Shown: piece by piece, positions 31,206 through 41,403 of the stretch | Numbering within the stretch: position 1 is the first letter of the stretch | Layout of the letters: every line of letters begins with the position of its first letter | Source: Halomicrobium urmianum | GTDB lineage: Archaea; Halobacteriota; Halobacteria; Halobacteriales; Haloarculaceae | Direction of reading: 5' to 3' | Assembly (NCBI RefSeq): GCF_020217425.1 | Contig: NZ_CP084090.1 | Location: 186,001 to 250,000, forward strand | DNA length: 64,000 bases | Notes under the pieces: generated by a model | The model's database searches: none | What the model was told of the DNA's origin: nothing | Seen by the model: the letters and a program-made list of their open reading frames with translations, nothing else | Program-made: the position numbers and the translations under genes

Positions 31206-33359
31206 ATGAGCGACGATCCGGACCCCACCGAGCGCAACCGGCTCGACGAGGAGGAGAGCCCCTACCTGCGCCAGCACGCGGACAACCCGGTCAACTGGCA
31301 GCCCTGGGACGAGCGGGCCCTGGCGGCGGCACGGGAAGAGAACAGGCCCATCTTCCTCTCGATCGGCTACGCCGCCTGCCACTGGTGTCACGTCATGGAG
31401 GAGGAGAGCTTCCAGGACGAGGCCGTCGCGGAGGTCCTCAACGAGCACTTCGTCCCGATCAAGGTCGACCGCGAGGAGCGGCCGGACCTGGACTCGGTGT
31501 ACATGAGCATCTGCCAGCAGGTGACCGGCCGCGGCGGGTGGCCCCTCTCGGCGTGGCTCACGCCGGAGGGCAAGCCCTTCTACGTCGGGACCTACTTCCC
31601 GCCGGAGGAGAAGCGCGGCATGCCCGCGTTCGGGGACCTGCTGCAGGACATCGCCGGCTCCTGGTCCGACCCGGAGGACCGCGAGGAGATGCACAACCGA
31701 GCCGAGCAGTGGACCAGCGCCATCGAGAGCGACCTGAGCCAGCCCTCGCCGTCGGCCGACGGGGAGACGCCCGGCCCGGACGTCCTCGAGACCGCGACCA
31801 ACGCCGCCGTCCGCGGCGCCGACCGCGAGCACGGCGGCTGGGGCGGCGGTGGCGGCCCGAAGTTCCCCCAGCCCGGCCGCCTCCAGTCCCTCGCCCGCGC
31901 CGCCGAGCGCGACGGCCGCGAGGACGCCCGCGAGGTCCTCACCGAGACGCTTTCCGCGATGGTCTCCGGCGGCCTGTTCGACCACGTCGGCGGCGGCTTC
32001 CACCGCTACTGCACCGACCGGGAGTGGGTCGTCCCCCACTTCGAGAAAATGCTGTACGACAACGCCGAGATTCCCCGCGCCCTCCTGACGGGCTACCAGC
32101 TGACGGGCGAGGAAGCCTACGCCGAGGCCGCCGCCCGGACCTTCGCGTTCGTCGAGCGCGAACTGACCCACGACGGGGGCGGCTTCTACAGCACGCTCGG
32201 CGCGCAGAGTCCCGCCTTCGACGAGGACGGCGAGGCTGGCGAGGACGAGGAGGGCGCGTTCTACGTCTGGACGCCCGAGCAGGTCGAGGCGGCAGTCGAG
32301 GACGAGACCGACGCCGACCTCTTTCGCGACCGCTTCGGCGTGACCGAGCGGGGCAACTTCGAGGGAGCGACGGTGCTGACGATCAGCGAGAGCGTCGCGG
32401 ACCTGGCGGCGTCGTACGACCTCGACGAGAGCGAGGTCGAACAGCGCCTCGAACGCGCCCGCGAGCAGGTCTTCGAGGCCCGCGCCGAGCGCCCGCGGCC
32501 GGACCGCGACGAGAAGGTGCTGGCTGGCTGGAACGGCCTCATGGTCTCCGCGCTCGCCGAGGGCGCCCTCATCCTCGACGACGCGTACGCCGAGCGGGCC
32601 GCCGACGCGCTCTCCTTCGTCCGCGAGCACCTCTGGGACGATGCGGAGGGGGAGCTGAAGCGCAGATTCAAGGGCCAAGACGTCCGCATCGACGGCTACC
32701 TCGAAGACTACGCCTTCCTCGCGCGGGGAGCCCTCGACCTCTTCCAGGCGACCGGCGAGGTCGAGCACCTCGCGTTCGCGCTGGACCTGGGCCGCGCGAT
32801 CGAGCGGGAGTTCTGGGACGAGGAGGACGAGACGCTGTACTTCACCCCCGAGAGCGGCGAGTCGCTAGTGGCCCGGCCGCAGGAGCTGACCGACCAGTCG
32901 ACGCCCTCCAGCGCCGGCGTCGCCGTCCAGACCCTCTTCGCGCTGGACCACTTCACCGACCACGACCGCTTCGCCGGAATCGCCGAGGGCGTCCTGGCGA
33001 CCCACGCCAACGACGTCGAGGCCAGCCCGATGCAACACGCTTCGCTCGTCGTCGCCGCCGACCAGTACCACGAGGGCGAACTCGAACTGACGCTGGTCGC
33101 CGAGGACGTCCCGGCCGAGTGGCGCGAGACGCTCGCCGAGACGTACGTCCCCGGACGCCTGCTGGCCTGGCGGCCGGCCGACGACGGCGAACTGGAGCGG
33201 TGGCTCGACGCGCTGGACCTGACCGAGGCGCCACCGATCTGGGCCGACCGCGGGCAGCGCGACGGCGAGCCGACGGTCTACGCCTGCCGGAACTTCGCCT
33301 GCTCGCCGCCGGACCGCGAGATAGCGAGCGCGCTGGAGTGGGCTGCGGAAGAAGTCTAG
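31206..33359 (+). CDS. DUF255 (YyaL/SPATA20-like) thioredoxin-domain protein
   Basis: In this 717-residue protein, the N-terminal 165 residues form a thioredoxin-like domain with the family signature SPYLRQHADNPVNWQPW and the catalytic-type CHWC in SIGYAACHWCHVMEEESF. The rest is a large alpha/alpha toroid resembling six-hairpin glycosidases (EKVLAGWNGLMVSALAEGAL). Length fits the family, conserved from bacteria to mammalian SPATA20. The function is unsettled; a redox or N-acylglucosamine-epimerase-like role has been suggested. It is convergent with a thioredoxin-like gene only 15 bp away. Confidence 0.92.
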   Translation: MSDDPDPTERNRLDEEESPYLRQHADNPVNWQPWDERALAAAREENRPIFLSIGYAACHWCHVMEEESFQDEAVAEVLNEHFVPIKVDREERPDLDSVYMSICQQVTGRGGWPLSAWLTPEGKPFYVGTYFPPEEKRGMPAFGDLLQDIAGSWSDPEDREEMHNRAEQWTSAIESDLSQPSPSADGETPGPDVLETATNAAVRGADREHGGWGGGGGPKFPQPGRLQSLARAAERDGREDAREVLTETLSAMVSGGLFDHVGGGFHRYCTDREWVVPHFEKMLYDNAEIPRALLTGYQLTGEEAYAEAAARTFAFVERELTHDGGGFYSTLGAQSPAFDEDGEAGEDEEGAFYVWTPEQVEAAVEDETDADLFRDRFGVTERGNFEGATVLTISESVADLAASYDLDESEVEQRLERAREQVFEARAERPRPDRDEKVLAGWNGLMVSALAEGALILDDAYAERAADALSFVREHLWDDAEGELKRRFKGQDVRIDGYLEDYAFLARGALDLFQATGEVEHLAFALDLGRAIEREFWDEEDETLYFTPESGESLVARPQELTDQSTPSSAGVAVQTLFALDHFTDHDRFAGIAEGVLATHANDVEASPMQHASLVVAADQYHEGELELTLVAEDVPAEWRETLAETYVPGRLLAWRPADDGELERWLDALDLTEAPPIWADRGQRDGEPTVYACRNFACSPPDREIASALEWAAEEV

Positions 33360-33374
33360 ACGAACTGCGACCGC

Positions 33375-33758
33375 TCAGGCCAGCGCCGCTTCGATCTCGT
33401 CGGCCAGGTAGACCGAGATGGGGACGGGCTCCTCCTCGACGAAGCGGGCGATCTCCTCGCCCTCTTTCTCGACGACGACGGTCGGGATCAGCTCGATGTC
33501 GTACTCCTCGACCTTCGGGCCGACCTTGCTGCCGTCGTCTTCCTTCTCGACCGGGTAGTGCTCCACGTTCTCGTCGGGCACCTCGGCCGCCTCCAGGGCC
33601 GCGCCGAAGTCCGGGAGCTGCGAGCGGCAGTCCTTGCACCAGTCGCCGCCCCATACCCTGAACGTCAGTTCGTCGCCGTGTTCCTCGAGCGTCTCGACGG
33701 TGTCCGAGTAGGCGTCCTCGACCCACACCGGGTTCGGCTCCATGGTCTCAAGTGGCAT
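33375..33758 (-). CDS. Thioredoxin-family protein
   Basis: This 127-residue thioredoxin fold has the redox motif WCKDC in FRVWGGDWCKDCRSQLPDF near residue 40 and the cis-proline region IELIPTVVVEKEG. The charged residues between the cysteines are unlike canonical WCGPC, so reduction potential and partners may differ. The ATG at 33758 lies 27 bases from a TATA box. It ends 15 bases from the stop of the DUF255 gene on the other strand. Confidence 0.88.
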   Translation of the reverse strand: MPLETMEPNPVWVEDAYSDTVETLEEHGDELTFRVWGGDWCKDCRSQLPDFGAALEAAEVPDENVEHYPVEKEDDGSKVGPKVEEYDIELIPTVVVEKEGEEIARFVEEEPVPISVYLADEIEAALA

Positions 33759-33779
33759 GCTGGGTGCGTACGCAACGGA

Positions 33780-33789
33780 ACGTTTTAAC
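33780..33789 (-). promoter_or_regulatory. TATA-like box of the thioredoxin gene
   Basis: CGTTTTAACG reads CGTTAAAACG on the minus strand, about 27 bases before the ATG at 33758. Confidence 0.5.
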
Positions 33790-33896
33790 GTCCCCGCCTC
33801 GGAGGCCGGCGGAGCTAACTCGGTGGCCCTGGATCCATCGTTCCAATCACAACTGCTAGCGTCCGGGCTCTCGGCACGGCCTGCCGGTGGCGGCGG

Positions 33897-33906
33897 GGGT
33901 TTACGG
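33897..33906 (+). promoter_or_regulatory. TATA-like box of cysK
   Basis: GGGTTTACGG is centred about 27 bases before the ATG at 33929. Confidence 0.45.
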
Positions 33907-33928
33907 CCCGGCCGGCAAGGCTCCCAGT

Positions 33929-34855
33929 ATGAAGGAGTCTATCCTGGAGACGCTGGGGTCGCCGCTCGTGGCGGTGGAGTCGCCCGAGGACGCGACCGTC
34001 GCGGCGAAGGTAGAGTCGTTCAACCCCGGCGGATCGGCCAAGGACCGCCCGGCGACGGCGATGATCGAAGCAGCGGAGGACGCTGGCGAGGTCACGCCGG
34101 GCGACACGCTCGTCGAGCCGACCAGCGGCAACACGGGCATCGGGCTGGCGATGGCCGGCGCGGTGAAGGGCTACGACGTGCGCCTGATCATGCCCGGCTC
34201 GAAGTCGCCCGAGCGCCGACAGATCATGGAGGCCTACGGTGCCGACATCGAACTGGTCGATGGCGACATCTCGGACGCGCGCGAGCGGGCCGACGAGCTC
34301 GACGAGCAGGACGGGTTCCTCCAGCTCCGGCAGTTCGAGAACGAGGCGAACCCGCAGGCGCACTACGAGACGACCGGTCCGGAGATTCTCGACCAGGTCG
34401 GCGACCGGACCGTCGACGCGCTCGTGGCCGGCGTCGGCACCGGGGGAACCATCAGCGGGATCGGACGCCGGCTCCGGGAGGAGTTCCCCGAGATGCGGAT
34501 CGTCGCCGTCGAACCCGAGGACAACGCCGTGCTCTCCGGCATGGAACCCGGCACCGGCGAGGACAGCTTCCAGGGCATGGGCCCGGGCTTCGTCAGCGAC
34601 AACCTCGACGTCGACCTGCTCGACGACGTGACGACGGTGGGCCTCGACGCGGCCGAAGCGGAGTCCCGCCGGCTGGCGCGCGAAGAGGGGATCCTCGTGG
34701 GCCAGTCCTCTGCCGCGTCGAACCTGGCCGCCCGCGAGGAGGCCGAGCGGCTGGTCGACGAGGGCGCCGAGGACCCGCTCGTCGTGACGGTCTTCTGGGA
34801 CAGCGGCGAGCGCTACATGTCGACGGGCATGTTCGAGGACTATAATAGAGATTGA
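33929..34855 (+). CDS. cysK: Cysteine synthase (PLP-dependent)
   Basis: This 308-residue fold-type II PLP enzyme makes cysteine from O-acetylserine and sulfide. The PLP lysine is in NPGGSAKDRPATAM near residue 40, the substrate loop is EPTSGNTGIGLAMA, and the phosphate-binding glycines are GVGTGGTISGIGRRL. The last residues (DYNRD) and the stop codon are encoded by the left arm of an 88-bp palindromic element at 34839-34926, so the original C-terminus was probably replaced. The enzyme core is intact, so activity is likely kept. Confidence 0.94.
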   Translation: MKESILETLGSPLVAVESPEDATVAAKVESFNPGGSAKDRPATAMIEAAEDAGEVTPGDTLVEPTSGNTGIGLAMAGAVKGYDVRLIMPGSKSPERRQIMEAYGADIELVDGDISDARERADELDEQDGFLQLRQFENEANPQAHYETTGPEILDQVGDRTVDALVAGVGTGGTISGIGRRLREEFPEMRIVAVEPEDNAVLSGMEPGTGEDSFQGMGPGFVSDNLDVDLLDDVTTVGLDAAEAESRRLAREEGILVGQSSAASNLAAREEAERLVDEGAEDPLVVTVFWDSGERYMSTGMFEDYNRD

Positions 34856-38807: not shown

Positions 38808-39788
38808 ATGAGCAACGACTCCGAGGCCGAGGAGGCCGACGCCGAAGCACAGCAAGAGGAGACACAGGCCGATGAGGAGGTCGCCGAGGAGGAGACCGAG
38901 GACGGACTCCAGCAGGGCGACTTCGTCGAGATCGACTACACCGCACGCACGGTCGACGAGAGCGACCTCGTCGACACGACCGACGCCGACGTCGCCGAGG
39001 AGGAGGGCGTCGGCGAAGACCAGGAGTTCGGTCCCCGCACCATCGTCCTCGGCCAGGGCCACCTCTTCGAGGCCGTCGAGGAGGACATCTACGGCGGCGA
39101 GCCCGGCGACACCGGTGAAGTCGTCGTCCCCGCCGCCGAGGCCTTCGGCGAGTACGACGAGAGCGAGGTCCGCACGGTCTCCAAGGACAAGATCCCCGAG
39201 GACGACCGCTATCCCGGCGCGCACGTCGACGTCGACGGCGAGCACGGTCACCTCGAGACGATCATCGGCGGCCGCGCGCGCGTCGACTTCAACCACCCGC
39301 TGGCCGGCGAGGACATCGAGTACGAGTACGAGATCCTCGACGAGGTCGACGACCGCGAGGAGCAGGCCCAGGGCATCCTCTCGATGATGCTCGACATGGA
39401 ACTCGACGTCTGGTTCGAGACCGAGACCGTCGAGGAAGAGCAGATGGTCGAGCCCGACGAGGACGACGCCGACGAGGACGAGGAGCCCGAGCCCGAGTTC
39501 GAGACCGTCGAGACCGAGAAGGAGACCCTCTACATCGAGGCCACGCCCCAGCTCACCATGAACCAGCAGTGGATGATGGGCAAGCAGCAGATCGCCCAGC
39601 AGCTCACCCAGCTGCTCGACGTCGACCGCATCATCGTCCAGGAGGAGCTGGGCGGCGGCATGGGCATGCCCGGCATGATGGGCGGCATGGGCGGCGGCGC
39701 CGGCGGCGCCGACATCGAGGAGGCCCTCGAGGACGCCGACGTCGACGCCGAGGAGATCGTCGAAGAGATCGAAGGCGCCGAGGAGTAG
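38808..39788 (+). CDS. FKBP-type peptidyl-prolyl isomerase (long archaeal type)
   Basis: This 326-residue chaperone-like prolyl isomerase has residues 1-33 as an acidic disordered head. The FKBP core with an inserted IF domain follows: GDFVEIDYTARTVDE, RTIVLGQGHLFEAVEEDIYG, then the insert and DFNHPLAGEDIEYEYEILDE. A C-terminal extension of over 100 residues includes an acidic linker, a Gln/Met-rich segment (MNQQWMMGKQQIAQQL), a Gly/Met-rich patch (MPGMMGGMGGGAGG) and an acidic end. The long form is typical of haloarchaea. A partial duplicate of its last 45 bases lies 72 bases downstream. Confidence 0.93.
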   Translation: MSNDSEAEEADAEAQQEETQADEEVAEEETEDGLQQGDFVEIDYTARTVDESDLVDTTDADVAEEEGVGEDQEFGPRTIVLGQGHLFEAVEEDIYGGEPGDTGEVVVPAAEAFGEYDESEVRTVSKDKIPEDDRYPGAHVDVDGEHGHLETIIGGRARVDFNHPLAGEDIEYEYEILDEVDDREEQAQGILSMMLDMELDVWFETETVEEEQMVEPDEDDADEDEEPEPEFETVETEKETLYIEATPQLTMNQQWMMGKQQIAQQLTQLLDVDRIIVQEELGGGMGMPGMMGGMGGGAGGADIEEALEDADVDAEEIVEEIEGAEE

Positions 39789-39859
39789 AAGAGCATACCG
39801 CACCGTAGGCGCGGTTTCTCCGGACGCGAGCGAACCCGACGAAGTAAAAAGGTACGAGC

Positions 39860-39904
39860 GACGCCGAGGAGACCGTCGAGGAGATCGAAGGCACCGAGGA
39901 GTAG
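39860..39904 (+). pseudogene. Duplicated 3' end of the FKBP gene
   Basis: These 45 bases repeat the end of the FKBP gene (39744-39788) with three differences, including the TAG stop, and would encode 14 residues (DAEETVEEIEGTEE). No start codon or gene body precedes them, so this is a fragment left by tandem duplication or by recombination between tandem copies. Confidence 0.85.
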
Positions 39905-40130: not shown

Positions 40131-41225
40131 CTACCGCTGTTGCGAGCCGCGCTGGTCCCCCCGCTGGCCGCCGACCCGCGGGAAGGCGTCCTCGTCGTAC
40201 TCCTGATCGACGGGCGCGGCCTGGGGCGTCGGCTCCCAGAAGCCCTGATCGGCAGATCCTGGCTCGCCGAAGGTCTGCTCGGTCCCGACGTAGTCCGGCG
40301 ACTGGTCGTGGCGACCCTGACCACCGAACTGGAGCCCCATGTCGGGCTCGCCCGTCTGGCTACCGGGCTGCTGACCGCCGTGCTGCTGGGCGCTCTGTTG
40401 CTGGCCGCCGTGCTGCTGAACACCGGCGCGCTGCGGTCCCGGCTGCTGCCCGCCGAACTGCTGACCGCTCGACTGTCGGCCGCCCTGCTGTGTCCGCTGC
40501 CGGCCGCCCTGTCGCTCCATCTGATACCGCCGCTGCCGTCCGCTGGCCGGCTGTCGCTGGGTCCCCTGCCGCTGGTGGGACTGCTGGGTCCCCTGCTGCT
40601 GCCCGCCTTGCATCGACTGGCGTCCCCGCGTCGACCGACCGCCTTGCGAGGAGGCCCGTCCCTGTTCGCGCTGGGTCGGCCCCTGTTCGGTCGGCGGCCG
40701 CGCGCCGGGTTGCTGACCCGACGGCTGCTGGCGCGTCGGCGCGTGCCGCCCCATCGACTCGCGGGACGGCTGCTGGTTCGACTGCGGCTGGCGTCGACCG
40801 CTCCGTCCGCCCTGCTGGCCCCGACTGGACTGCTGACCCTGCCGGGATTGCTGACCGCTCCGGTGCTGCTGGGAGCCCCGGCCCGTCTGCCCGTGCTGTC
40901 CGGCCTGGCGCTGCTGCGTCCGCTGTCCGCCCCGTCCCCCGCCACCTCGCTGCTGCGACTGCGGGCCCTGGCCTGCCTGCCGTCGCTGGCCGGTCTGTCC
41001 CCGCTGCGACGGCTGACCGTGCTGGGACTGGCCGCCGTGGCCCTGGGGCTGTTGCTGGCCCCGGTGTGTGTCCCGGGCTCGCTGGTCAGTCTGTCGACCC
41101 GTCTGTCCCCGGTGGCCGGCGTGGCCCTGCGCTCCTCGCTGATTGCCCGGCGCCTGATCGGACTGCTGGTCGATGTCCTGATTCCGCTGGCCGCGCCGAC
41201 TGTCGTCGTGGTTGTGGTGAGTCAT
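40131..41225 (-). CDS. Gln/Arg/Gly-rich intrinsically disordered protein
   Basis: This 364-residue protein is dominated by Q, R, G, S and P, with QGG, RGG, SRGQQ and HGG motifs, and has almost no hydrophobic core. Only the last 70 residues look ordered and acidic (EPDMGLQFGGQGRHDQSPDY, then DQGFWEPTPQAAPVDQEYDE). It is basic over most of its length, opposite to the acidic haloarchaeal norm. Codon third positions are G/C-rich and the start THHNHDD is plausible. The exact antisense frame (Leu-rich, 40140-41237) is also open, so strand choice is a judgement based on codon logic and the ATG context. Possible roles include RNA binding or condensate formation, as inference only. Confidence 0.6.
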   Translation of the reverse strand: MTHHNHDDSRRGQRNQDIDQQSDQAPGNQRGAQGHAGHRGQTGRQTDQRARDTHRGQQQPQGHGGQSQHGQPSQRGQTGQRRQAGQGPQSQQRGGGGRGGQRTQQRQAGQHGQTGRGSQQHRSGQQSRQGQQSSRGQQGGRSGRRQPQSNQQPSRESMGRHAPTRQQPSGQQPGARPPTEQGPTQREQGRASSQGGRSTRGRQSMQGGQQQGTQQSHQRQGTQRQPASGRQRRYQMERQGGRQRTQQGGRQSSGQQFGGQQPGPQRAGVQQHGGQQQSAQQHGGQQPGSQTGEPDMGLQFGGQGRHDQSPDYVGTEQTFGEPGSADQGFWEPTPQAAPVDQEYDEDAFPRVGGQRGDQRGSQQR

Positions 41226-41403
41226 GGATTCAATTGAGCGGTCGATCGATCGCCCGGTGGGGCGTCCCGAACCAGGGCGCGAACACCATAGAAGGTTGGC
41301 CCGGCAGGCGCGCTACCGTCCGTTCGTGGCAGTTAGGTCGCCTGTATCGGGGAGCCACGTGACCCCACCTGGTACGTGGCGACGCCGGGGACGGCGGTGG
41401 CCG

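Follow-up and report, generated by a model that had tools for sequence, protein, structure and literature searches.

The window, that is, the whole 64,000-nucleotide stretch of Halomicrobium urmianum DNA analysed here, bears on its minus strand an open reading frame which, judging from the substitution pattern in its relatives, is a real, fast-evolving gene under purifying selection, and whose Gln/Arg/Gly-rich product is predicted to be almost wholly disordered. Seven homologues from three genera all had the same 25-residue C-terminal motif (family A), and sequence comparison indicated that several Gln-rich basic families with different short motifs co-occur in a minority of haloarchaea. The features described below are listed in Table 1.

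Table 1. Features of the family A gene and related genes of the same genome (positions of the window unless a locus is named)
Feature	Position	Strand	Basis
Gln/Arg/Gly-rich disordered protein gene (family A), 364 aa	40131..41225	-	ORF, homologues, selection on the frame
Conserved His/Asp start MTHHNHDDSR, residues 1-10	41196..41225	-	Alignment with relatives; not kept in G131 and G156
Variable disordered body, residues 11-296, pI about 12, Lys-free	40338..41195	-	pLDDT mostly <50 (predicted); divergence
Conserved C-terminal motif GLQFGGQGRHDQSPDYVGTEQTFGE, residues 297-321	40263..40337	-	Profile E 1.1e-17 in this genome
Acidic stretch 3' of the motif, residues 322-364, found in this species only	40134..40262	-	Alignment, pI; no confident order
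Candidate upstream element GCCGGGCCAACCTTCTATGG, bases -61 to -80 before the ATG	41286..41305	-	Upstream alignment
Antisense Leu-rich ORF, 365 aa, judged not a gene	40140..41237	+	CAG/GGC codon shadow; stops and dN/dS
Three further Gln-rich basic genes of this genome, B and C repeat cassettes	L051:16246-17244; L123:4204-5433; L121:5705-6652		

The ORF starts with ATG and, its stop codon included, spans the whole interval given for the gene. The protein contains 26% Q, 20% G, 13% R, 8% S, 6% P and 4% H, has neither Lys nor Cys, and carries a net charge of +22 (K+R minus D+E) at a pI of 11.8, with a pI of 12.0 for residues 1-296 and of 4.2 for the last 68 residues (297-364). The haloarchaeal cytoplasm contains molar KCl, and the proteins of halophiles are expected to be acidic. 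In a 464 kb sample of the same genome (the window and 20 stretches of 20 kb), the 400 ORFs called by codon-position GC had a median pI of 4.6 and a median Q of 2.1%; the 53 ORFs of this sample with a pI above 10 include spurious Ser/Arg/Pro-rich frames. Ten clear genes of the window averaged 1.8% K, 6.3% R, 2.9% Q and 21% D+E, and when all frames of the 464 kb were considered, a Q content of 15% was reached by just two ORFs of 100 aa or more, the studied one and the L051 gene of Table 1. The contrast with the median pI bears out the earlier note, which had described a basic protein rich in Q, R, G, S and P in an acidic proteome. Such a protein is not a one-off in molar KCl, as these genomes contain several families of Gln-rich basic proteins.

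The Leu-rich frame had been recognised before as equally long, and it was present on the opposite strand as described, so that the coding strand needed proof. When the genes of G005 and G006, two genomes of the same genus, were compared, 23, 32 and 45 differences fell at codon positions 1, 2 and 3, respectively (third-position excess over the first, p=0.010), and all four gaps of the DNA alignment were multiples of three (3 or 18 bases). The dN/dS of the Gln-rich frame was 0.42 for this pair and 0.44 for G128/G130, and that of the antisense frame was 1.55 and 1.48. Values of 0.01, 0.16 and 0.10 were obtained for flanking genes in these genome pairs, and by this comparison the gene is real but fast-evolving. 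The substitution pattern, together with the antisense stops described next, settles the coding strand as minus.

We consider the probability close to nil that the Leu-rich ORF is the gene and the Gln-rich frame its shadow: the ORF matches the Gln-rich frame in length here and is fully open also in G156, but 1-5 stops interrupt it in the other six of the seven homologues, and an antisense dN/dS of about 1.5 means that the changes fall where the Leu-rich protein would be altered, so that the relatives do not preserve this frame. The Leu-rich frame is the reverse complement of CAG/GGC-rich codons. It is hardly more credible that the open frame lies in low-complexity DNA which has no function and is drifting, a reading which would account for the many indels and the 40-60% divergence that the body tolerates between species within one genus; it is contradicted by the dN/dS of the Gln-rich frame, by the gaps in multiples of three and by the conservation of the motif between genera at different genomic sites.

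AlphaFold2, run on an alignment of two sequences, yielded a mean pLDDT of 44.6 and a pTM of 0.13, with no residue at a pLDDT of 70 or above and the highest values (59-63) in blocks of the tail. The C-terminal tail had been called ordered and acidic; the acidity was seen, in this species only, and no confident order was predicted. The many RGG and QGG motifs attributed to the protein amounted to what its composition yields (RGG, 2 against a shuffled mean of 1.9; QGG, 5 against 3.7), RG and RR counts were also not above composition, and a mild enrichment was limited to GGQ, GQQ, HGG and FGG/YGG. Neither a signal peptide nor a membrane segment was evident by eye in the 364-aa protein. A sequence search of the PDB with the family A protein found no solved structure, and Pfam and NCBIfam gave no match for the studied protein (E up to 1) or for four of the seven homologues (E up to 10).

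The motif had the consensus GLxYGGEARHxxxPxxVGxEQTFG, and all eight members were Gln-rich basic chains that showed the membership pattern GLx[YF]GGxxRHxxxxxxVGxxxxxG. By protein search, family A was found in three of 59 relatives, this genome counted. A profile of the conserved stretch detected it in 8 of the 146 genomes of the taxonomic family (3 of 22 genera), with best E-values of 2e-17 or lower, which are partly circular because the profile was built from the same members, and in at least 5 of 392 genomes of the order, which were drawn from a larger group and in some of which no more than 20 candidates were scored. Within the genus of the window, three of seven genomes (G000, G005 and G006) had the family. 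Weak hits in G059, G085, G121 and G146 (E 0.003-0.01) were not counted; they were not recovered with the eight-sequence profile and their loci contained no Gln-rich or motif-bearing frame. A 12-position second match in G006 (E 0.007) was also left uncounted. Among IMG/VR sequences there were 12 pattern matches, none of which was confirmed as a relative, and the PLSDB plasmids contained no relatives.

Family A members were 309-432 aa long, with a pI of 9.2-11.8, 3-8% hydrophobic residues, 4-22 aromatic residues per protein and 5 Lys in 2762 residues overall. The His-rich start read MTHHxHDDSR in the genus of the window and MHHxH in three of the four g14 members, and G131 and G156 lacked it. The 25-residue motif formed the very C-terminus in the four g14 genomes, and in G005 and G006 it was followed by a long basic extension, as opposed to the acidic stretch of this species. 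Homologues with a conserved tail and a variable middle, proposed earlier as a check, were indeed found: between g14 species, 20-22 of the 25 motif residues were identical and the remainder was 37-59% identical (the G000/G006 pair, misaligned at the motif with 8/19, was not used in these figures).

Counting the studied gene, at least four genes for basic, Lys-poor, Gln-rich disordered proteins are present in this genome, and those besides the studied one are unannotated. The family B gene on L051 (minus strand) encodes 332 aa with 37% Q and a pI of 11.9, contains the repeats GRSRGGQHSAQSQQRDQQGQFTG and ends in GLTQEARSRGGTHSAQEQERNEQGHFAGKD, and the C-terminal sequence of the family is GLTQEARRRGGKHSAQEQERDEQGQFTG; contig C2 carries a second family B gene, and at 1762 kb of C1 there is a family C gene (GRGADQGTQDRRHSQQFRQ...PRDPQTGQF). 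Family B resembles family A in composition, basic pI, near-absence of Lys and occurrence in the same genomes, and differs from it in its motif and in its reach, since the B motif was found in 12 of the 392 order genomes, 9 of 95 genera and 5 families. Homology of the two motifs was discarded, as their profile-profile comparison gave a probability of 0.1%. The seven B loci read outside g1, g14 and g10 (G022, G026, G036, G114, G178, G299 and G392) all encoded Gln-rich, basic, Lys-poor proteins, with 30-43% Q and a pI of 9.8-12. In the taxonomic family, 16 of the 146 genomes had family B, among them seven of the eight with family A (all but G005; Fisher p 3.6e-7 treating genomes as independent), a co-occurrence which is inflated by shared ancestry inside g14. 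The two families were nevertheless found together in three genera, including the isolated case of G156 in g10, where G015, G034, G155 and G165 had neither among the profile matches. In G156, some 5 kb away from its family A gene, L044:2532-4253 encodes a Gln-rich protein of 573 aa whose long C-terminal part is acidic and ends in the family B motif (GLTDEDRSRGGKNSSENLERDDQGRF).

A QQGGQQ codon pattern, which misses the studied protein itself and so undercounts, occurred in 10 of 25 chosen genomes, in none of the g2, g4 and g6 controls and in none of G001-G005; one such site in G000 (C1:1961332) lay in no Gln-rich frame. The Gln-rich genes that we call D, found in G006, G131 and G126, adjoin a DUF7344-type gene (by Pfam for G006 and G131, by eye for G126). 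Two of these loci, L129:4573-5463 and L128:3748-4878, belong to two genera and have a common neighbourhood: in both G006 and G131 the D locus had a dodecin gene, a fused complex-I 49/30-kDa-like gene, a pentapeptide-repeat gene and DUF7553, the complex-I and pentapeptide-repeat names being assigned by eye in G006. Also in G006, L129:6912-8000 encodes a CBS-domain pair after a Gln/Pro-rich N-terminal stretch.

Among known proteins, hydrophilins are defined by Gly above about 6% and a hydrophilicity index above 1. All eight members contained 14.6-19.8% Gly and had a GRAVY of -1.99 to -2.37. The part of PMC2292704 available to us gives high glycine as the distinguishing feature of hydrophilins. 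The studied protein has in common with these proteins, which overlap with LEA proteins, the high Gly, the extreme hydrophilicity and the predicted disorder, and differs from them in being Gln/Arg-rich, Lys-free and without a KGG or LEA domain. Inspection by eye suggests a similarity of the B motif to the KGG stress repeat; Pfam KGG (PF10685), which we take to be the repeat of the GsiB/con-10 type, matched none of the eight genomes at E up to 1, as against 6 of 14 control genomes, nor did a family B protein match it at E up to 10, so that membership of the KGG/GsiB type was rejected. With 26% Q and its low pLDDT, the protein is also a disordered Gln-rich chain comparable to the FUS-like and prion-like domains, with which it shares the Q/G/S-rich composition and the scattered [FY]G (17 outside the motif over the eight members against 7.3 expected, carried mainly by three); unlike them, it has few aromatics and no folded RNA-binding domain, and it presumably works in a cell with molar KCl. 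A link to the hyphal and spore-forming haloarchaea was dropped, as the accessible part of PMC10067837 contained nothing bearing on the studied gene.

Published work on condensation at high salt is relevant here. As far as the available part of PMC7889641 goes, phase separation of FUS sets in again above 1.5 M KCl, and an Arg-rich peptide, PR25, forms condensates only at high KCl and does so by itself at 2.7 M KCl. According to the same work, contacts between Arg residues become attractive at high salt, RNA is not required and poly-U RNA has no visible effect on the high-salt PR25 droplets. Because of this behaviour of FUS and of an Arg-rich peptide, the idea that a basic disordered protein is out of place in molar KCl needs turning round, and self-association by non-ionic contacts seems the most likely. 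We tentatively propose, as a quite possible role, a stress-type disordered protein of the hydrophilin or Q-rich low-complexity kind which would be adapted to molar KCl, would self-associate and would dock a partner through its motif. Salt would screen the Arg-Arg repulsion and strengthen non-ionic contacts (Gln/Gly hydrogen bonds and Arg-aromatic contacts), the body would then self-associate weakly at the KCl of the cytoplasm into a dynamic, water-retaining assembly, and the docking of the conserved motif would bring this assembly to its site; dilution would dissolve it. The benefit that we infer would be that, upon changes of water activity or salt, the contents of the cell are protected or re-organised. 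Condensate formation is plausible on this analysis. Against the proposed role count the absence of KGG and the fact that family A has no stress-pointing neighbourhood common to the genera, and the sticker-spacer logic is weak in g14 since aromatics are few and the [FY]G enrichment is concentrated as stated above. The patchy presence (8/146) argues against an essential role.

A dispersed hydrophilin or molecular shield, that is, a soluble water-holding filler guarding enzymes during drying or salt entrapment, with no condensates and with the motif serving turnover or a chaperone, seems to us rather unlikely; the composition of all eight members (20% Gly and a GRAVY of -2.0 in the studied protein) and the position of the family D genes, adjoining DUF7344 and near dodecin and DUF7553 in G006 and G131, would fit it, and the absence of Pfam KGG from the eight genomes speaks against it. 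Only slightly less probable, and unlikely in our opinion, is that the Arg/Gly body of an RGG-type nucleic-acid-binding protein binds RNA or DNA and gives rise to ribonucleoprotein or nucleoid condensates. Its Arg and Gly contents, net charge and body pI of 12 suit such a protein, and RGG-box RNA-binding proteins are likewise Arg- and Gly-rich, basic and disordered. The RNA-binding suggested earlier finds, however, no RGG signature above chance and no RNA- or DNA-binding domain or family in Pfam or NCBIfam (at the E-values given above), the G156 member has a net charge of only +3, and molar KCl weakens ionic contacts with RNA. The lack of effect of poly-U on PR25 condensates, as given in the part of PMC7889641 consulted, points in the same direction.

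An envelope-associated or secreted matrix protein leaving the cell by an unrecognised export route is very unlikely. In other organisms, Q/G-rich low-complexity proteins are often the building material of extracellular matrices; here no Sec- or Tat-like start was seen by eye in any of the eight members and the body is basic, which haloarchaeal surface proteins typically are not.

If the proposed role of a self-associating protein is extended to families A to D, some haloarchaea might have evolved their Lys-poor, Gln/Arg-rich disordered proteins as salt-gated compartments, in which the cell's own molar KCl would switch on a non-ionic, RNA-independent condensation, dilution would dissolve it and each type would be addressed by its own motif, a generalisation that we regard as doubtful.

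Low-complexity disordered proteins are a known kind; what looks new is a co-occurring Lys-poor, Gln/Arg-rich set made of motif-defined families in a molar-KCl lineage. Titles and the beginnings of abstracts in open-licence PMC yielded nothing on haloarchaeal Gln-rich disordered, low-complexity, condensate or hydrophilin-type proteins. A basic, nearly Lys-free, Gln-rich disordered set in molar KCl contradicts the rule of acidic proteins, and provides a test case from nature for the published proposal that condensation of low-complexity proteins at multi-molar salt proceeds via non-ionic contacts. If these proteins condense in vivo, they would make phase separation at a physiologically high salt concentration accessible in a tractable archaeal system.

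The surroundings of the family A gene differed between genera. In the window it is flanked by genes for an FKBP-like peptidyl-prolyl isomerase and an MgtE-like transporter, and in G005 and G006 by an IclR-like regulator and a bacterio-opsin-activator-like gene (all names by eye); the neighbourhood in g14 was different again and syntenic within g14 only. No neighbour common to different genera was found among the neighbourhoods compared. The neighbour gene of G005 and G006 had no full-length orthologue in G000, the best match being partial with 46% identity. Despite the differing surroundings, a stretch similar to GCCGGGCCAACCTTCTATGG was found upstream of the gene in G005 and G006, and the four g14 members have an AAACGGA-TC-G-CCTAT block in common before the ATG; these common stretches are weakly suggestive of promoters. 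In g14 (L040, L041, L042 and L043), two or three near-identical genes of 64 aa, cold-shock-like by eye, are arranged in tandem a few kb from the family A gene. Elsewhere in the window (31206-34855), DUF255-like, thioredoxin-like and cysteine-synthase-like genes lie together (names by eye), and in G130 a family B gene is inserted in a cluster of the same three kinds (L131). Finally, the FKBP-like gene of the window has its 3' end (39743-39788) repeated 116 bp downstream, in a 46-bp copy with 93% identity at positions 39859-39904. G006 also contains, just downstream of its FKBP-like gene, a fragment that matches the C-terminal 38 residues of the protein; these copies are possibly the scar of a recombination or integration.
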